From positions 1-20,207 of the IMG/VR virus record IMGVR_UViG_3300032093_001060: a stretch of DNA of 20,207 nt. One strand, given 5' to 3'. A model generated the notes under the pieces. The model searched no databases. It saw only the letters and a program-made list of their open reading frames with translations, and was not told where the DNA came from. This DNA comes from a virus. Below are positions 512 to 16,654 of this stretch, piece after piece. Numbering within the stretch: position 1 is the stretch's first letter; each line of letters starts with the position of its first letter. Both the position numbers and the translations under genes were made by a program.

Positions 512-1738
512 ATGAATTCTAAGGAATTAAGAGAAAAGCGGGCTTCCGATTATGCGATAATGGAAGACCTACAAAAAAGAGCAGCAGCCGAAGGTCGCTT
601 AATGTCAGCTGATGAGTTGGCACAGTGGGATCAAGCGGATGCCTCTTTTAAAAGTTATACAGACCAGATTTCTCGTTTAGAAAGATGGAATGAAATCAAC
701 TCTGAGTCAAGAGGATTAAGCGAGGTTGAGCAAACAGTTGCTGCAATGCCTACTAATCAAAGAGAGATTGTAAAGTCTCCTGAATATCACTCTGCATTCA
801 TGAAGGCTATTGCCAAGAGAGAGTTAAACAACACTGAGCGTTCATTGCTTCGTGAGATGCGTGGTACTGCAACTATTACGACTGCAGAGACTGGCTTGGC
901 TGGTGGTTATGTCATTCCTTACCAATTCTCAAACGAGTTGGAAAGAACAATGGCATATTATGGACCAATGTTACAGGTTAGCCGTATTATAACTACTCCT
1001 CAAGCTGGCACATTGTACTGGCCAAAGGTAAATGACACTGGAACAAGTGCTAACTGGCATACAGAAGGTAATGCTGTGACTGTACAAGACATGACCTTTA
1101 CAAGAGAGACTTTTGCAGCTCACGTTTGTAACACATTGGTTAAGGTATCTGTTGAGTGGGCAAATGATGAGTTTGGTCTATTAAATAGCGAATTACCTAT
1201 CATGTTAGGTGAGCGTTTAGGTAGAGCGTTAAACACTGCGTTTACAACTGGTGATGGCTCTGGTAAACCAACTGGATTTAAAGACGCTGCTCCATCCGGT
1301 GTAGAATCTGCATCTACTGGCGCGTTTACTGCTGCTAACCTTGTTGACCTTGTTCACTCTGTTGACATTGCTTACCGTAACTCTCCATCTGCTGCATTTA
1401 TGATGCATGACCAGATTTTGAGTGCGGTTAGAAAGTTAAATTATGATACTGCAAACAATCCATTGTTCCAGCCATCATTGAGAGAAGGTACACCTGATAG
1501 ATTATTGGGATACAATTTCTTTGTGAATAATGATTTACCATCTACACAAGCTGCAGATGCAAAGATTATTTACTTTGGAGATTGGAGCAAATATATAATC
1601 CGTGCGGTTGCTAATAATGTCCTTGTGCCATTGCGTGAGCGTTTCATGGATGAGATGGAAATAGGTTTCTTAATGTATGCTCGTTATGATGGCAAGTTGC
1701 TTAATACGGCAGCAATTAAGCACCTTAAGAATCTGTAA
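512..1738 (+). CDS. Major capsid protein, HK97 fold
   Basis: This is the main shell protein of the icosahedral head. The 408-aa length fits precursor HK97-type capsid proteins. Residues 1-70 are charged and helical (many E, K, R, D, Q), as expected for an N-terminal delta/scaffold domain removed by the protease encoded just upstream. The Phage_capsid-type body follows from about residue 115, with the segments GGYVIPYQFSNELE, LYWPKVNDTG, a TxGDGSGKPTGF block around 247-258, and LLGYNFFVNNDLPS near 330-343. The maturation cleavage site cannot be placed from sequence alone. The start lies one base after the protease stop. A perfect 8-bp hairpin follows the stop and may limit read-through. Identity is very likely. 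Confidence 0.95.
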   Translation: MNSKELREKRASDYAIMEDLQKRAAAEGRLMSADELAQWDQADASFKSYTDQISRLERWNEINSESRGLSEVEQTVAAMPTNQREIVKSPEYHSAFMKAIAKRELNNTERSLLREMRGTATITTAETGLAGGYVIPYQFSNELERTMAYYGPMLQVSRIITTPQAGTLYWPKVNDTGTSANWHTEGNAVTVQDMTFTRETFAAHVCNTLVKVSVEWANDEFGLLNSELPIMLGERLGRALNTAFTTGDGSGKPTGFKDAAPSGVESASTGAFTAANLVDLVHSVDIAYRNSPSAAFMMHDQILSAVRKLNYDTANNPLFQPSLREGTPDRLLGYNFFVNNDLPSTQAADAKIIYFGDWSKYIIRAVANNVLVPLRERFMDEMEIGFLMYARYDGKLLNTAAIKHLKNL

Positions 1739-1802: not shown

Positions 1803-2363
1803 ATGGGTTGGAAAGTAACGACTGCACCGGTAAATGAACCTTGGACATTGCAAGAGGTTAAAGATTATTTAAAGATTGATGACTCAAACGAGGACACAAT
1901 GATAAATACTTTAATTAAAGGTGCAAGGATGGTGGCAGAAAGTTATCTTAACCAAGCATTAATAACACAAACAATAACGGAGAAATTTGATAGGTTGTCT
2001 AATCCTACTATTTATCTTAGTGTATCTCCAGTTATTGCAGTTACTAATTTCCAGTACGCAGATAGCCAAAATACTACGCAAACCTTTGCATCTACTAATT
2101 ATGTCGTTGACACATTCAGTAAGCCTGCAAGGTTAACGCTTGGCTACGGCAAGACATGGCCAACACTTTATGGGAATATAAATGATGTTACGATTACTTA
2201 TACGGCTGGCTACGATACAGAAAGTAGCGGTGTACCATACCAAATAAGACAAGCTATTTTATTAATGATAGCTGATACATACGAGAATAGACAAGATTAC
2301 GTTAGAAAGCTACCAACGGCTTCTCAATATCTTTTAGACCAATATAGAGTTCAATATTTCTAA
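1803..2363 (+). CDS. gp6-like head-tail connector protein
   Basis: This protein likely forms the ring beneath the portal that joins head and tail. The N-terminal segment W-T-L-Q-E-V-K-D-Y-L-K-I (about 14-25), followed by a D/N/E-rich turn, an acidic helix and AESYLNQALITQT, is the hallmark of the HK97 gp6 / phiE125 gp8 group of connectors. The C-terminal part (VPYQIRQAILLMIADTYENR, about 144-163) is the matching terminal helix. At 186 aa it has the usual family length. It follows the capsid gene across a 64-bp gap with a hairpin, and its TAA overlaps the next ATG (TAATG at 2361-2365), so translation of the head-closure gene is probably coupled to it. Confidence 0.85.
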   Translation: MGWKVTTAPVNEPWTLQEVKDYLKIDDSNEDTMINTLIKGARMVAESYLNQALITQTITEKFDRLSNPTIYLSVSPVIAVTNFQYADSQNTTQTFASTNYVVDTFSKPARLTLGYGKTWPTLYGNINDVTITYTAGYDTESSGVPYQIRQAILLMIADTYENRQDYVRKLPTASQYLLDQYRVQYF

Positions 2364-4300
2364 TGAAATACAACAAAAATGAAATTATTGGTCGAATGCG
2401 TGATAGGATTACCATCCAAAATGTCACACGTTCAAAATCAGATACAGGCTTTGCCCAGGAGTCATGGGCAGATAGTGCCATAGTTTGGGCGAATGCCGAA
2501 AGCAAGTTACCTCCATCCAATGAAACGGTAATTGATGGGAAGAATACTGCTAAAAATATAAGTGACTTTACAATAAGATATACGACAGGCATAGATGAAG
2601 AAAGTCGTATTATATGGAATGACAAACTGTATCAAGTTAGAAATATAAAGGTAAGTCACGATAGAAGATTTATAAGTTTTCAAGGCGAATTCTACGACTC
2701 ATACATACTTACCGGTGTTTCCGTTGCTGCCATCCTTTCAGCCAATGCAAGCCTATCTTCCAATGTTAAGGTGATACATAATGTGCTTGCTGCTATGAAT
2801 GCAATAGCAACAACGAACGCTGAAATAGTTGTTAGCCAACAAGGTCAAGTATTACTTGACTCTTCCCTCTCCGCATCTGGCAATGTTTCTGCTGATGCTA
2901 CAAAAGTGATAAAAATTAATAGCGATGTTACTGCAAATGGCACTTTAGCTGCTTCGGTGACAAAAGCTATAAATATAGATAGCACACTAAATGTAAATGC
3001 TACTTTAGTTGGCGATGCTTTAGTGAGCAAAACATTATTAAGTACATTAAATGCAAGTGCTACGACATCGGCTGCGGTTGATGTTGTGACGCAAGGTTTA
3101 GTAAGTGTAGATGCAGCTTTAACAGGATTAGGCACTGTTTCTGCTGATATTTTCCGTACAGTTACATTAGAAAGTAGTTCAAGCACAAGTGCAACAACAG
3201 AATTAAACGCTACGCTTACCAAAGTCATTGAGGCATCAATGAACGCTGCTGCAATTACTGAAAGTGCTGCACAGTTAACGATTGCCGTTAACGCTGAAAC
3301 TAATGCAATTGCTACAACATCAGCAGATGCTACACTATCATATACAGTCAATGCCGAGTTAAACGCTACGGCACAAACAACGGTTAATGCACAGATAACG
3401 AGGATTATTTCTGCAGACATGACTGCAACGGCACAGACAAGTGTTGAGGCTGGCATTGGTGTTACATTTGTTTCTTCATTAATGGCTGCTGGTTCTGTGA
3501 CTAATGCTGAATTGTTTAGAACGGCAACGCTTGAAAGTTTTTTAACTGCAAACGGCACAACGACATCAGCAATTACAACGGCTAAGAATATTTCGGCAAG
3601 TGTAAGCGGAGCGGCAACGGTGACGAACAGTAATTTACAATTATTTGACCCTAATTTTTCATCAGTACAATTATTATTGCATGGGAATGGAACAAATGGA
3701 AGTACTACATTTACCGATAATTCAAACAACAACTTTAGTTTAACAAGAGGTGGAAATACAGTTATTTCAACTGCGCAAAGTAAATTTGGAGGAGCAAGTA
3801 TTTTATTTGATGGAGCTGGAGATTATTTACAAATACCTAATAATTCAAATCTTACATTAGGTACTGGTGATTTTACTATGGAATTTTGGATATATCCATT
3901 AAGTCAACCTGGTTTATTTAATACAATTATTGGAGGCGATGCAACGTCTCAACCAATAGTAAATTTAAGAGGTAGTGGCACGAGTTCAAGTATTAGTATG
4001 AATGTTTTTGGAAGTGCCGATATATTTAATGAATCCTTTACATTTACTCAAAATAATTGGTATCATGTTGCAATTTCAAGAAGTGGTACAAGTCTAAAAG
4101 TATATGTTAATGGAAATCAAATAGGTCCTACAATTACAAATAGTACAAATATATCAGCTCCAATAACGTGTGTAGGAGGTCTTATTTCCTATGCACAAAA
4201 TTTTAATGGTTATATAGATGATGTAAGAATAACAAAAGGAGTTGCAAGATATACTGGGTCAACATTGACAGTACCTACAAGGGAATTTTTAGACCAATAA
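2363..4300 (+). CDS. Head-closure protein fused to repeat region and LamG-like domain
   Basis: Three parts are visible in one uninterrupted 645-aa frame. Residues 1-112 resemble the SPP1 gp16 / HK97 head-closure adaptor family, with the opening GRMRDRITIQNVTRS, a central W-A-x-A-E, and IIWNDKLYQVRNIK. That family normally ends at about 110 residues. Residues ~115-425 are Ala/Thr/Ser/Asn-rich tandem repeats of about 20 aa. Residues ~427-640 are a concanavalin A-like LamG domain, with LLLHGNGTNGSTTFTD, SILFDGAGDYLQIP, DFTMEFWIYP, WYHVAISRSG, YVNGNQIG and YIDDVRITKGVARYTGS. I infer that the adaptor anchors the chain in the neck and the repeats form a stalk that displays the LamG domain, perhaps as a neck whisker or decoration that binds glycans. 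The start overlaps the preceding stop. The LamG part is more A/T-rich than the repeats, which hints at a separate origin. Confidence 0.8.
   Translation: MKYNKNEIIGRMRDRITIQNVTRSKSDTGFAQESWADSAIVWANAESKLPPSNETVIDGKNTAKNISDFTIRYTTGIDEESRIIWNDKLYQVRNIKVSHDRRFISFQGEFYDSYILTGVSVAAILSANASLSSNVKVIHNVLAAMNAIATTNAEIVVSQQGQVLLDSSLSASGNVSADATKVIKINSDVTANGTLAASVTKAINIDSTLNVNATLVGDALVSKTLLSTLNASATTSAAVDVVTQGLVSVDAALTGLGTVSADIFRTVTLESSSSTSATTELNATLTKVIEASMNAAAITESAAQLTIAVNAETNAIATTSADATLSYTVNAELNATAQTTVNAQITRIISADMTATAQTSVEAGIGVTFVSSLMAAGSVTNAELFRTATLESFLTANGTTTSAITTAKNISASVSGAATVTNSNLQLFDPNFSSVQLLLHGNGTNGSTTFTDNSNNNFSLTRGGNTVISTAQSKFGGASILFDGAGDYLQIPNNSNLTLGTGDFTMEFWIYPLSQPGLFNTIIGGDATSQPIVNLRGSGTSSSISMNVFGSADIFNESFTFTQNNWYHVAISRSGTSLKVYVNGNQIGPTITNSTNISAPITCVGGLISYAQNFNGYIDDVRITKGVARYTGSTLTVPTREFLDQ
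2710..3640 (+). repeat. Diverged tandem repeats of about 60 nt (about 20 aa)
   Basis: Within the head-closure fusion the protein cycles with a period of about 20-21 residues. Each unit has the rough pattern [V/L/E]-x-[S/A]-x-[L/V]-x-A-x-[A/G]-T-x-[S/N]-A-x-x-T-x-x-[I/L]. Examples are VNAETNAIATTSADATLSYT and VNAELNATAQTTVNAQITRI, which are adjacent, and two units that contain F-R-T-[V/A]-T-L-E-S. I count roughly 13-14 units. DNA identity between units is low, so these are old or selected protein repeats and not recent slippage. Confidence 0.7.
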
Positions 4301-4310
4301 ACCTAACACG

Positions 4311-5291: not shown

Positions 5292-5687
5292 ATGGCGGCT
5301 TTTTCAAATTATTTGGAAGACCAAATAACAGGATGGATTGCAGGTACATCAATGACTGCTCCGACTGCTACATTTGTACAATTGTATAATGGTGATCCAA
5401 CAGACGCAGGATCCGGTGGTACTGCTCTTTTTACAAGATACCAAGTTGCATCTGGTGCAGGTTCTTGGACAAGAGGTACAGGAGGAAATGGTACAATTAC
5501 GAATGCATCTGCTTTTACTATTACATCAAGTGCAACAGCTACTGCATCTGCTACTCACGTTGCGGTATGGGATGCATCTGCAGCTGGTAATTTACTATTT
5601 TATGGTGCTTTGACAACTGCTAAAACAATTGCATCTGGTGATGAGGTTAAATTTAACACAAGTGCTTTAACGTTAACAGTTGCTTAA
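5292..5687 (+). CDS. Small Gly/Ala/Thr-rich phage structural protein
   Basis: This 131-aa protein has the layout of a common but poorly characterised phage structural family. It has an N-terminal helix (MAAFSNYLEDQITGWIAG), then TAPTATFVQLYNGDPTDAGSGG, a Gly-rich stretch, THVAVWDASAAGNLLFYGALT near 87-107, and a closing TIASGDEVKFNTSALTLTV. Such proteins usually lie between capsid and tail genes and are variously labelled tail fibre or decoration proteins; I cannot choose between these. The composition predicts an all-beta fold. The gene ends in a strong hairpin with a T tract, like the capsid gene, which would fit a product made in large amounts. Confidence 0.65.
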   Translation: MAAFSNYLEDQITGWIAGTSMTAPTATFVQLYNGDPTDAGSGGTALFTRYQVASGAGSWTRGTGGNGTITNASAFTITSSATATASATHVAVWDASAAGNLLFYGALTTAKTIASGDEVKFNTSALTLTVA

Positions 5688-5731: not shown

Positions 5732-6316
5732 ATGACTTATATCACGCAGAGCCAAATATCAAGGTTAAAAAGAGCAAGTGGAACAGGTGCTAAGACAAGA
5801 GGTATTTTTGCTAATGGCTTAGCTGAAACTGTTATAGAACTTAATGATATATTAAGTAAAATAACCATTGATAAAAGGATGGATGTTATTAATGCTGGAA
5901 TGCCTGCTGCAATAAATGTATATAAGTCTCTTATTCCTATATCTAAAAAAGAACATAAAATAAGTACGTTTGCTAAAGGTGTAGGAAAGTCTGGAGGTAA
6001 TGCTGATTATAGATATATAGTTAAGCCTGGTAACCTTCAAAGATCAATAAAAGGTTTAAGCCAATTATTAAAAAAATACAAGTGGAATAGTGGAGCAATT
6101 GGTCCTCATTATTTAGCACAACCAATAGGTTCTACTTTAAATAGTGAACAAAAATACGATGGCTTTTATGCTCACATGGTTTACGGCTCTGCAAAAGCAT
6201 GGAGGCAAAAAATAGTTTTAAAAGCAAAAAATATGTCTGCATCTGTTGTTTATCCTAAGATGGTAGCAGAGGCAAAGGAAGTAGTTAAGATGTACCCTAA
6301 AAAGTTTTGGGAATGA
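5732..6316 (+). CDS. gp10-like neck / tail-completion protein
   Basis: I infer a neck (tail-completion) protein of the HK97 gp10 type from position and pattern. It is a basic 194-aa protein with a helical N-terminal half (ETVIELNDILSKITIDKRMDV), then R-S-I-K-G-L-S (about 109-115), a hydrophobic-Gly strand, and F-Y-A-H-M-V-Y-G-S (about 144-152), the F/Y-x-x-x-x-E/Y-x-G-T-type segment typical of that family near the C terminus. It sits immediately before the tail-terminator-like gene, the expected place. The insertion around 85-105 makes it a little longer than typical members. Its stop overlaps the next start (ATGA at 6313-6316), which suggests translational coupling. Confidence 0.65.
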   Translation: MTYITQSQISRLKRASGTGAKTRGIFANGLAETVIELNDILSKITIDKRMDVINAGMPAAINVYKSLIPISKKEHKISTFAKGVGKSGGNADYRYIVKPGNLQRSIKGLSQLLKKYKWNSGAIGPHYLAQPIGSTLNSEQKYDGFYAHMVYGSAKAWRQKIVLKAKNMSASVVYPKMVAEAKEVVKMYPKKFWE

Positions 6317-6702
6317 TAGGAAAGGTAATATACGGAAGGTTAAGCGCAGAGCCTACAGTTATAGCGATTGTAGGGCAAAAAATATATCCTGATTTGACAC
6401 CTCAAGATGTGCAATATCCTTTCTGTGTTTACACTATTGTTAATTCTACTCCAGTTGATTACAAGGATGGACAAAGTAATTTGGAGGAGGTGCAATTTCA
6501 AATAGATTGCTATACTCAAAGCTATGATACTACGCAAGAACTCGCAAACAACATAAGAAATAGCCTTGATAGATTTGTAGGGACTGTAAATGGAGTTGAA
6601 GTGCAAACCATTAAATATATGTCCAGCGATTCACAAGTATATAATCCTACCTTAAATGTATATTGGATGTCAGTTGATTTTATGGCAAGAATGAAAAGAT
6701 AA
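6313..6702 (+). CDS. DUF3168-like tail terminator protein
   Basis: The product (129 aa from this start) fits the DUF3168 / tail-terminator group that caps the tail tube. It shows an initial helix (IGKVIYGRLSAEPTVIAIVG), then KIYPDLTPQDVQYPFCVYTIVNS, which matches the family's 'P-x-x-x-x-x-P-Y-x-x-y' pattern, and a strand VQFQIDCYTQSYDTTQELANNIRNSLD followed by a final beta hairpin. A TTG at 6307 would add two residues. I prefer the ATG at 6313 because it makes a 4-bp ATGA overlap with the upstream stop, an arrangement used elsewhere in this window. The position between neck protein and tail tube supports the role. Confidence 0.75.
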   Translation: MIGKVIYGRLSAEPTVIAIVGQKIYPDLTPQDVQYPFCVYTIVNSTPVDYKDGQSNLEEVQFQIDCYTQSYDTTQELANNIRNSLDRFVGTVNGVEVQTIKYMSSDSQVYNPTLNVYWMSVDFMARMKR

Positions 6703-6978: not shown

Positions 6979-7407
6979 ATGGCAACAACTGGAATTATTA
7001 ACGGTACGTTGATGCGACTATACAAAGATAGTACTGCTATCGGTTACGCGACATCCTGCCAAATGAACATCACTGCTGCTATGCGTGAAATCTTAACCAA
7101 AGATAGCGCAAGCGGTGGATGGAGAGAAGTTAAAAAAGGTCAGCTTTCAGGCACACTGTCAACAGAGGCATTGTATGCTGGGCCTGGCGATTCATCTACA
7201 AACTACTTGTTTGATGATCTCTTTACAGATTTGATAAGCGGCACTGCTTTAACTATTAAGTTTACTACTGATGTTAGCGGTGATAACGTGTTTACAATGT
7301 CTGCCATCTGTACATCATTGGATTTAAACGCAGCCGTAGAGGAAAATACAAGCTACTCAGCTTCGTTTGAAGTTACAGGTGCAATTACAAAGTCAGTTAA
7401 ATCTTAG
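6979..7407 (+). CDS. Major tail tube protein
   Basis: The tail tube is built from stacked rings of this protein. The 142-aa sequence is beta-rich, with an early strand pattern (TLMRLYKDSTAIGYATSCQMNIT), then REILTKDSASGGWREVKKGQLSGTLSTEALY (about 35-66). This 'tKds..gg..ev..g..s.tis.e.l' pattern is shared with the TP901-1 / Phage_tail_2 tail tube family. A C-terminal strand YSASFEVTGAI follows. The position directly upstream of a tail assembly chaperone and tape measure gene confirms the identification. It is expected to be among the most abundant virion proteins. Confidence 0.85.
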   Translation: MATTGIINGTLMRLYKDSTAIGYATSCQMNITAAMREILTKDSASGGWREVKKGQLSGTLSTEALYAGPGDSSTNYLFDDLFTDLISGTALTIKFTTDVSGDNVFTMSAICTSLDLNAAVEENTSYSASFEVTGAITKSVKS

Positions 7408-12406: not shown

Positions 12407-12770
12407 TTATACAGAAAGAACAGTTTTATCGAAACCTCGCGACTTTGCAGAAGTTGCTAATAACGCAGGAAGTGGCGGAGTAGTTAATAATAATGTTAAT
12501 GAAAGCATTACCAATGTAACTGTAACAGGTTCTTTAATTTCTATATTTTCAGAGGAATTTATTGCAGTTAATTCCAATGTTTTAACGTACACTAAAAACG
12601 ATGGAGTTTTGCCAACCACAAATACAGATGCATCTATCCAAGTTTATCAAAATGGGCAGAAATTAATTGCATCTCAATATACCATTACTCAACCAAGCAC
12701 AATTACAATAGATAGTAATACGCATTACGATGGTTCAAATTATATAATTTTTGCAATAATTATAAACTAA
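12393..12770 (+). CDS. Small tail-associated protein
   Basis: This 125-aa protein has no clear family. It begins with a polar segment and a G-S-G-G-V-V-N-N-N-V linker (26-35), then becomes beta-rich (ITNVTVTGSLISIFS, TNTDASIQVYQNGQKLIASQYTI, IIFAIIIN), like short accessory tail or fibre-attachment proteins. The start overlaps the previous gene by 14 bp, and a second ATG at 12399 is possible. An AGAGGTGA stretch at 12371-12378 is one of the few Shine-Dalgarno-like elements in the window, though its spacing to either ATG is long. The stop overlaps the fibre-gene start as TAATG. Confidence 0.65.
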   Translation: MSMPSYTERTVLSKPRDFAEVANNAGSGGVVNNNVNESITNVTVTGSLISIFSEEFIAVNSNVLTYTKNDGVLPTTNTDASIQVYQNGQKLIASQYTITQPSTITIDSNTHYDGSNYIIFAIIIN

Positions 12771-15025
12771 TGGAAATACAAGCACCTAAGAAAGAAAGAA
12801 AGATTTTAAAATCTATTGGTCGCATTGCTGGTGTTTTAGCGCAAGAACTTGTACTTGGTTTAGGAAGAAAATACATAGGTAAAATGATAAACAAAATTAA
12901 GATTCCAAAGAAAAGAGAAACGCTATCCTTTCTCATCCTCCTTTCCTGCACCTTTGCCTTTGCCCAGTATCCAGCGACAGGCAATAAACAAAGATTGGGT
13001 TATCAAACAACTGGAGATGGATTGGTTTTTAGAGGAAGGTCAAGCGATACAACAGCATTAAAACCTTCTACTATTAATAATGCTTACCATTTATTTGATA
13101 CAGTAAACAATGTCTTATTTAGTTACATTAAGACTAAAGGAGGATGGAAGTTTAATAATTCAGACACGGTAATTATTCAAGGTGCAACAATGCCATTTGA
13201 TTCTATTACCTTTAATACGGCAAAGGATGGCACAGTAGGAGTGGGTGAAGTAGAATACAATGATTCGCAAGGCTCTTTGATTCAAGGCTTAAAAGGTGGC
13301 AATGTGACCAATGTAATAGGGCAGCAACTACATCAAAGAGTAAGCAATGTTACTGGCTCAACATTATCTAAGGGTACTGCGGTTTATTTGTCAGGTAGCC
13401 AGGGAAACAGAATAACGGCAGCCAAGGCACTTGCAACAAGCGATCCAACATCGGCAAATACATTTGGTATAGTGGCTGAAAGCATAGCAGACAATGCAAG
13501 TGGCTATGTTATTACAGAAGGATTAATTACCGGAATAAACACATCAGGATTAACAGAAGATTCTGCGGTTTACTTATCTCCAACAGTTGCAGGAGGATTA
13601 ACATCAACCAAGCCACAAGCACCTAATCATAATGTTTATATTGGTGTTTGTGTTAAGAGTAATGCTGGTTCTGGTGAATTGTTCGTCAAAATAAAAAATG
13701 GCTTAGAATTAGATGAATTGCATGATGTGTTAATTACATCGCCTGCAAGTAATGCAAGTTTGTATTATAAAAGTAGTGAAGGTATTTGGCGAGACACAAC
13801 TGCAGCACTTTTGGTAAGTGACACAGCTACCATGCTTACAAATTATTTAAGGTCAGGTGTTGCAGCTTCGACATATCAAACAAAGTTAAATGGCACTGGT
13901 TTTGTAAAAGCAAGCGGTACAACCATAACTTATGATAATTCAACTTATCTTACATCCTCAACTGGTGTTACCACTTTTTCAGCAGGTACTACTGGCTTTA
14001 CACCATCCTCTGCTACATCTGGCGCAGTGACATTGGCTGGCACATTAGCAATTGCCAACGGAGGCACAGGTGCTACATCAGCCTCTGCTGCAAGGACTGC
14101 TTTAGGTGCAACGGTTCGAGGTGCAAATACTTTTACTTTAACAGATATAGGAGCAATTTCATTTTTAAGATACAATGCAGATAATACGGTTAGCCAAAGG
14201 GCAGCCGATGGAATGCGTAGTGATTTGGGAGGTACAACAATAGGCCAATCAATGTTTACATTAACCAATCCTTCTGCTATTACTTTCCCAAGGTTTAACG
14301 CTGATAATACGGTGAGCGCATTAAGTGCTACAGATTTCAGAACTGCTATTGGCGCAGGGACAGGTAATGGAAATGGTACTGTTACAAGCGTTACAGGAAC
14401 TTTACCTATTTCATCAAGTGGAGGAACTACACCAAATATAACTATTGCTAATGCTTCAACTACTGCATCTGGTGTAGTTACTACATCAACTCAAAGTATG
14501 GCAGGAAATAAAACATTTACGGGAGATTTGGCAACAAGTGGAGCATTTAGCGCAACAGGTTTTAGCACATTAACAGGCGGTGCAAGTGTAGGTACAATGG
14601 CCACAACATCTTCATTAACTCATGTTCTTGGTGTAAATAGTAGTAATACAATAGGTGAAATATCCATAGGTAGCGGATTAAGTTTAACAAGTGGTTCTTT
14701 ATCGGTTACAAGAGGTGATAATGGTTATTTATCATCAACATCCACAACAATATCACTAATAAGTGATTACGGTTTAATTGAGCAATTATATTTAAAAATA
14801 AATCAAAGTTCTACGGTTACAATTACATTACCAACTGCAAGTTTAAATACAGGTATGGCGATTACTATAAAAAATATAGGAAATGGTGCAGTTAATTCAA
14901 ATGCAAATAATATTGAACCTTTAAATAGTTCAACATTAGATGCAATAATATTAACATCTGGTGGAGGTAAATTTACTACTCTTGTAAGCGATGGTTCTAA
15001 CTGGTTAAAAATGGCTGGAAATTAA
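12770..15025 (+). CDS. Tail-fibre-like protein with internal signal-peptide-like segment
   Basis: This 751-aa protein is probably a receptor-binding fibre or tip protein. Residues 1-45 are basic and amphipathic. Residues 47-66 (KKRETLSFLILLSCTFAFAQ) have the charged, hydrophobic and AFA-Q parts of a Sec signal peptide. From residue 67 on it is a Ser/Thr/Gly-rich beta chain typical of phage fibres. It has GNVTNVIGQQLHQRVSNVTG near 174-193, two 41-aa tandem repeats (445-526), and a C-terminal domain ending LVSDGSNWLKMAGN, a common fibre end. If translation began at the internal ATG at 12884 (residue 39), the product would be a 713-aa protein with an N-terminal signal of ordinary length. The overlap with the upstream stop (TAATG) favours 12770. 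Confidence 0.75.
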   Translation: MEIQAPKKERKILKSIGRIAGVLAQELVLGLGRKYIGKMINKIKIPKKRETLSFLILLSCTFAFAQYPATGNKQRLGYQTTGDGLVFRGRSSDTTALKPSTINNAYHLFDTVNNVLFSYIKTKGGWKFNNSDTVIIQGATMPFDSITFNTAKDGTVGVGEVEYNDSQGSLIQGLKGGNVTNVIGQQLHQRVSNVTGSTLSKGTAVYLSGSQGNRITAAKALATSDPTSANTFGIVAESIADNASGYVITEGLITGINTSGLTEDSAVYLSPTVAGGLTSTKPQAPNHNVYIGVCVKSNAGSGELFVKIKNGLELDELHDVLITSPASNASLYYKSSEGIWRDTTAALLVSDTATMLTNYLRSGVAASTYQTKLNGTGFVKASGTTITYDNSTYLTSSTGVTTFSAGTTGFTPSSATSGAVTLAGTLAIANGGTGATSASAARTALGATVRGANTFTLTDIGAISFLRYNADNTVSQRAADGMRSDLGGTTIGQSMFTLTNPSAITFPRFNADNTVSALSATDFRTAIGAGTGNGNGTVTSVTGTLPISSSGGTTPNITIANASTTASGVVTTSTQSMAGNKTFTGDLATSGAFSATGFSTLTGGASVGTMATTSSLTHVLGVNSSNTIGEISIGSGLSLTSGSLSVTRGDNGYLSSTSTTISLISDYGLIEQLYLKINQSSTVTITLPTASLNTGMAITIKNIGNGAVNSNANNIEPLNSSTLDAIILTSGGGKFTTLVSDGSNWLKMAGN
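14102..14347 (+). repeat. Two tandem 123-nt (41-aa) repeats in the fibre gene
   Basis: Unit 1 (14102-14224) and unit 2 (14225-14347) both encode LG-x-T-x-x-x-x-x-x-F-T-L-T-x-x-x-A-I-[S/T]-F-x-R-[Y/F]-NADNTVS followed by A-x-x-R. A partial third match begins with IGAGTG. The same 'ADNTVSxLSAxxFRTAIGA' type repeat is frequent in fibre proteins and probably forms a trimeric beta shaft. Confidence 0.8.
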
Positions 15026-15820: not shown

Positions 15821-16654
15821 ATGAAACTTAACAAGATATTTCCGAACACGCATGAATTTAAAGATTATCAAGTTTATGGCAAAGAAAGATGGATGCTTTT
15901 TATATCCGATGTTCACCTTGATTCTGTACATTGTGACCGTGATAAATTAAAGCAACACCTTGATTTAGCACTTAAACGCAATGCACCAGTATTTATCTTC
16001 GGTGATTTGCTAGATTTGATGCAAGGCAAGTATGACCCGCGTAGTAATAAAGGTGACCTTAATCCTAAGTACAACTCTTCAAAGTATATTGATGAGGTAA
16101 TTAATGATGCTGTAGACTTTCTTACTCCTTATAAAGACGTACTTGCTTTCTATTCCCCAGGCAACCATGAAACATCGGTTGAAAGGAGGATAGAGTATGG
16201 AATTGCGGATAAAATTGCTTATAAACTTGATATTTCTAAAGGCAATTATTCAGGATATATTTATTGTAGGTTTTTTGGTTATTTGGAAGATACTGGTTCT
16301 TTGCCTTTGATAATTTCCTACCATCATGGGTACGGAGGTGGAGGGCCTGTTACACGAGATGTTATACAGACAAATAGAAAAGCGGTTTACCTTCCAGATG
16401 CACAAGTTATTATCTCTGGACACACTCATGACAGATGGATAGTTCCAATAACACGGCAAAGATTGTCACGATATAAGGAATATGTTGACCAGCAATGGCA
16501 TATTAAAACTGGGACTTACCAAAATGCTCCAACAGAATTTAATGGATATGTTGTAGAGAAGGGTTTAGCACCTAAAGCTGGTGGTGGCATATGGATGAAT
16601 TACACGATAGATAATACAAAATCCTTAGTTTATAATTTTCAATTTGCAGAATGA
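15821..16654 (+). CDS. Calcineurin-like metallophosphoesterase
   Basis: All motifs of the binuclear metallophosphoesterase superfamily are present in order: D-x-H (D30, H32 in FISDVHLD), G-D-x-x-D (61-65), G-N-H-E (114-117), a second-half histidine pair (H168-H169 in SYHHGYGG), and G-H-T-H (200-203). The fold hydrolyses phosphomonoesters or diesters with two metal ions. The substrate is not readable; the 277-aa length and compact single domain fit small phosphatases or nucleases. There is no signal peptide, so it acts in the cytoplasm. The stop overlaps the amidase start (ATGA, 16651-16654), tying its synthesis to the endolysin. A role in lysis, in nucleotide or nucleic-acid turnover, or as a cargo gene are all open. 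Confidence 0.88.
   Translation: MKLNKIFPNTHEFKDYQVYGKERWMLFISDVHLDSVHCDRDKLKQHLDLALKRNAPVFIFGDLLDLMQGKYDPRSNKGDLNPKYNSSKYIDEVINDAVDFLTPYKDVLAFYSPGNHETSVERRIEYGIADKIAYKLDISKGNYSGYIYCRFFGYLEDTGSLPLIISYHHGYGGGGPVTRDVIQTNRKAVYLPDAQVIISGHTHDRWIVPITRQRLSRYKEYVDQQWHIKTGTYQNAPTEFNGYVVEKGLAPKAGGGIWMNYTIDNTKSLVYNFQFAE

Follow-up and report, generated by a model that had tools for sequence, protein, structure and literature searches.

The analysed window is a virus record of 20,207 bases that carries a structural gene module of the siphovirus type. The features relevant to this study are collected in Table 1. Directly behind the gene for the head-tail adaptor, whose product scored 89 bits against TIGR02215 (cut-off 39) and is normally the usual partner of a stopper, lies a reading frame that starts with ATG and runs through 645 codons in a single frame with no internal stop. 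It joins a head-closure domain, a stalk of tandem repeats and a LamG-like module. The absence of a stop or frameshift between these parts, as claimed in the preliminary description, was thus confirmed, and the boundaries proposed there for the outer parts (residues 1-115 and 427-640) proved about right. Further downstream, positions 15821-16654 encode a phosphoesterase-like protein that matched LpxH-type UDP-2,3-diacylglucosamine diphosphatases weakly, below the cut-off. A search for a close cultured relative found the closure-plus-stalk part in none of the cultured relatives, and neither the glycosyltransferase nor the 740-aa tail protein was found in any of them. Two pattern-based scans of GTDB genomes yielded no prophage or host.

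Table 1. Coordinates of the features of the structural module within the window.
Feature	Position	Strand	Evidence or remark
MCP	512-1738		
Head-tail adaptor (Ad1), directly 5' of the fused gene	1803..2363	+	Phage_connect_1 (E 8.5e-11); phrog_442 (E 5.6e-32)
Fused head-closure/stalk/LamG gene, 645 aa	2363..4300	+	ORF, Pfam, PHROG, NCBIfam
Head-closure (stopper) domain, residues 1-116 (profile match 9-104)	2363..2710	+	
Repeat stalk, residues ~117-430, ~15 units of ~20 residues	2711..3652	+	
Exchangeable C-terminal module	3623..4297	+	Start approximate (codon ~421, identity collapse versus relatives)
LamG/ConA-like domain, residues 483-625	3809..4237	+	Laminin_G_3
Short common junction AATAAACCTAACACG, 5' of the next gene	4296..4310	+	Homology to relatives with other tips restarts here
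Glycosyltransferase-like gene bounding the exchanged segment	4311..5285	+	phrog_7162 (E 6.5e-19); synteny
gp80-like gene (Pfam 'Podophage GP4 fiber I protein gp80')	5292..5687	+	PF23140 (E 8.8e-28); phrog_240
Tail terminator, ring expected beside the stopper	6307..6702	+	Tail_completion_gp17 (E 6e-16); phrog_347 (E 2.6e-20)
Major tail protein	6979-7407		
Tape measure	8073-10184		

Residues 9-103 of the fused protein matched the Pfam family PF05521 (Phage_HCP) with an E-value of 7.4e-15 and 55.9 bits (cut-off 25). The protein also matched NCBIfam TIGR01563 (gp16_SPP1) with 27.9 bits (cut-off 20.6) and phrog_25. A family profile of the N-terminal domain matched PDB entry 2kz4 (E 5.8e-10), titled protein SF1141, which has been named a putative stopper (PMC9701221). 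The AlphaFold model of the domain was weak (mean pLDDT 47.0); when this low-confidence model was submitted to Foldseek, SPP1 gp16 ranked first (E 4.2e-3), and the first nine matches were all head-closure or other neck or connector chains, with TM-scores of 0.23-0.44. The identity of the first 115 residues as a stopper, as initially proposed, thus has good support from sequence and gene order and weak support from fold. The closure domain occupied one place per genome in the 12 genomes or genome fragments compared, in the same slot between the adaptor and tail genes as in the window, and its dN/dS values were 0.00-0.03. In public phage records, four head-closure relatives of the ordinary kind, with the same gene order, measured 101-112 aa, in agreement with the size of about 110 aa initially given for such proteins. 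The 645-aa protein departs from this compact single-domain norm, which is one of size and not a functional criterion. It could be argued that a closure-like domain has been reused to anchor a tail or baseplate fibre while another protein closes the head, since stoppers and tail-tube components have a common beta-barrel fold (PMC9701221) and another lineage carries a similar cassette on an anchor that is not a closure domain. The single, canonical slot behind the adaptor, the strong constraint on the domain and the scores above curated cut-offs all speak against such a reuse, which we regard as very unlikely.

The long fusion was found in all of the 58 distinct complete IMG/VR relatives (511-743 aa), which came from many metagenomes; relatives were counted as distinct sequences, as many loci were repeat retrievals of one contig. 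This recurrence in independent contigs ruled out a chimera or assembly error. Analysis of the stalk revealed a 20-residue period (z = 9.5 versus shuffled sequences) with harmonics at 40 (7.2) and 60 (5.6) residues, which bears out the tandem repeats noted initially. The repeat units were rich in alanine, threonine, serine and valine and contained one proline. In comparisons with eight relatives, the dN/dS of the stalk was 0.10-0.24, indicating purifying selection; on the basis of these low ratios, both the closure domain and the stalk are translated and constrained. The full-length AlphaFold model (mean pLDDT 39.9) was too poor to describe the stalk, and the short strands it contains may be taken as a hint of the stalk fold. 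Cleavage of the closure domain, or separate production of the C-terminal part, would leave the stopper alone, with the stalk and tip released or placed elsewhere in the virion. Proteolysis is invisible from sequence, in-frame ATG codons occur at residues 353 and 374 and GTG or TTG codons at 379, 384, 420 and 439, and a methionine lies near the junction in 23 of 44 relatives. However, the stretch between residues 374 and 506 of the window protein, which includes the beginning of the LamG module, is free of ATG codons, every complete relative has the fusion as a single frame, and the stalk is under purifying selection. We therefore consider separate parts unlikely and assume that the protein would act as one unprocessed chain.

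The C-terminal part had been described as LamG-like, and profile analysis established it as a ConA-like, lectin-type domain: residues 483-625 matched Laminin_G_3 with an E-value of 2.5e-22 and 80.1 bits (cut-off 27.6), the module matched PDB entry 4qvs (E 3e-6), and Foldseek with a low-confidence model of this part returned ConA-like matches. At least five unrelated tips were found on the same kind of stalk, namely LamG, Gly_rich_2, ArabFuran-like and two others. The 58 distinct complete members carried 45 Gly-rich, four 'YPMVG', four LamG, three ArabFuran-like and two repeat-propeller-like tips, a count that omits one further entry, a 62-aa piece. Tip types were assigned by sequence motifs, and profile scans covered a single example per non-LamG type; these scans returned PF21722 (Gly_rich_2), PF09206 and PF21959 (DUF6923), and the YPMVG example had no Pfam match. 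As the LamG tip is present in four of the 58 members only, the term 'lectin whisker' applies to the window member and not to the family.

The C-terminal module is a swap cassette exchanged between relatives. Nucleotide identity remained near 95% up to about codon 420, fell to the random level and recovered at the next gene. Compared with seven relatives (L004-L009 and L013) in blocks of 20 codons, identity was mostly 82-100% (lowest 63%) up to about codon 420 and dropped at once to 40-47% and below past that point. In 11 longer relatives, the fused gene was matched over only 57-68% of its length, whereas the capsid, adaptor, terminator and major tail genes, where present, mostly matched fully. 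The window and L003, both with a LamG tip, showed a synonymous divergence of 0.02 in the tip versus 0.16-0.18 elsewhere, as expected if the tip had moved recently. A tblastn search for LamG, ArabFuran and YPMVG modules elsewhere in the same genomes found none. The exchange of unrelated adhesin-type modules at the C-terminus fits an externally displayed binding arm.

Most of the non-LamG tips were followed by an ORF of their own; the LamG tip of the window was without one. Gly-rich tips mostly preceded a gene of about 120-145 aa (phrog_7759, E 2.4e-43), which was absent in L024 and L027. YPMVG tips were followed by a 74-aa gene, ArabFuran tips by an 82-88-aa gene and propeller tips by a second glycosyltransferase-like gene. 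In L034, L047 and L024, the glycosyltransferase gene is preceded by a stretch similar to the 3' end of the accessory gene of Gly-rich tips, which suggests that an older cassette was replaced or lost. The Gly-rich accessory gene had no sequence match in the PDB, and its assignment to a known chaperone was dropped on that ground; a chaperone role would be a guess by analogy. Homologues of this gene (phrog_7759) were likewise located 3' of a Gly-rich reading frame in phages Bellamy, CRP-143 and Greip. The occurrence of the pair in phages of Pelagibacter, Synechococcus and Roseobacter (L146, L148 and L150) suggests that an adhesin with its helper is widespread. The glycosyltransferase-like gene was directly 3' of the exchanged segment in most relatives and 94-98% identical in most of the close ones. 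In one relative it was reduced to its first ~33 codons (L018:2795-2893), and several further relatives gave no match to this gene. Its product might glycosylate the Ser/Thr-rich stalk.

Four loci (L185, L198, L208 and L209) represent a second, diverged head-closure lineage with a stalk and tips and a different MCP sequence; two versions of its closure domain matched PF05521 with E-values of 4.5e-16 and 7.6e-16. In a third lineage (24 loci), repeats and tips of the same kinds followed a different N-terminus of about 150 aa. Such an N-terminal anchor on a similar stalk and tips was seen in L206:1682-3949 and L230-L253, with the terminase large subunit gene close upstream. Profile searches assigned the anchor to no clear family, and its comparisons with the closure and adaptor profiles, and, despite a suggestive layout, with the tail terminator profile, were negative, these being weak tests based on shallow alignments. 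The anchor may be another neck protein, a role to which no profile match points. In each of the three lineages, the gp80-like gene came after the cassette region, and its product may belong to the appendage as well. Direct evidence that a cassette passed between lineages with unrelated anchors came from L235, of the third lineage, and L049, of the window's family, which shared 1,905 bases at 97.4% identity, comprising the stalk end, the tip and the accessory gene. We tentatively propose, as a possibility that falls somewhat short of probable, that a common pool of tip-plus-accessory cassettes circulates among unrelated phages and plugs onto the virion-anchoring protein of each lineage, i.e., the stopper in two diverged head-closure lineages and another protein in the third. 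If this were true, receptor binding at the neck would be a standard and evolvable feature of these phages.

Our best reading of the fused protein, which we hold to be moderately probable, is a stopper with a covalent adhesin arm that is displayed at the neck, has its tip swapped as a cassette and binds host-surface or environmental glycans. Judging from family and gene slot, the first ~115 residues would close the neck. The stalk would lead outwards and hold the C-terminal binding domain at its end, with several arms per neck; as the SPP1 connector contains six gp16 subunits, which form a DNA-retaining ring in the neck (PMC9701221), a virion with the same copy number would carry six arms. Recombination between the stalk and the next gene, both of them conserved, would swap the tip, in many cases along with the small accessory gene. 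As the tips are swappable, the function that fits best is attachment to an external target that varies. The most likely ligands of the tips are glycans of the host surface or the environment, and such binding would aid first contact. Because the third lineage carries its cassette on another anchor, location on a stopper is by itself no general proof of a neck site. The arm also need not be the main receptor binder, since the tail-fibre-like gene at positions 12770-15025 (751 aa) is likewise strongly mosaic between relatives. It is conceivable that an arm at the neck serves purposes other than host adsorption, such as the assembly or control of other fibres or a loose attachment to mucus or particles. 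Proposed roles of this type have been reviewed for the T4 neck fibres (fibritin whiskers), and the neck fibre of the Anabaena myophage A-1(L), which has a carbohydrate-binding module, showed no host binding (PMC10966104), so that a neck fibre with such a module need not bind the host. Repeated swaps between unrelated tips are, however, expected of a variable external target and not of a fixed assembly role, and an arm without a part in adsorption therefore appears rather unlikely. The proposed adhesin arm at the neck is relevant because searches for receptor-binding diversity in long-tailed phages usually focus on the tail tip. A DNA-retaining stopper with a swappable binding arm would unite head closure and surface recognition in one chain, would offer host-range predictors a gene that is otherwise overlooked, and would allow the movement of adhesin cassettes between unrelated phages to be traced. 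These uncultured phages probably hold grasping arms at the neck, the tips of which are swapped to change binding.

Searches of databases and of the literature, the latter with partial coverage, found no published report of a closure-adhesin fusion. The protein shares with stoppers of the SPP1 gp16 type (PF05521/TIGR01563) the profile match, the slot between adaptor and tail and the single copy. Those stoppers normally comprise one domain of about 100-112 aa, whereas here about 530 further residues form a stalk and an exchangeable tip. The closest functional parallel, by analogy and not by membership, would be the neck passage structure (NPS) of Lactococcus phages such as TP901-1, an elongated neck protein that ends in carbohydrate-binding modules (PMC10747895) and for which the exchange of unrelated C-terminal domains has been reported (PMC10684548). 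Both the elongated arm and the exchangeable C-terminal domain recur in the fused protein, with binding putative. In contrast, the NPS stands as a protein of its own, which binds the collar through its N-terminal domain and has been shown to be displayed at the neck, while here the arm belongs to the stopper chain and the stopper domain alone points to the neck. The neck fibres of A-1(L) also end in a carbohydrate-binding module (PMC10966104), but they consist of three separate proteins (gp82, gp81 and gp80) on a pentadecameric neck protein, unlike the single chain described here. Gly-rich domains are the receptor-recognition tips of the tail fibres of Pam3, which are assembled with the chaperone gp25 (PMC9608196). 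The combination of a Gly-rich adhesin tip with an adjacent chaperone gene in Pam3 (gp24/gp25) and S16 (gp38) resembles the Gly_rich_2-type tip and small gene of most relatives; in Pam3 and S16 that tip is borne by a tail fibre, and here by the closure protein.
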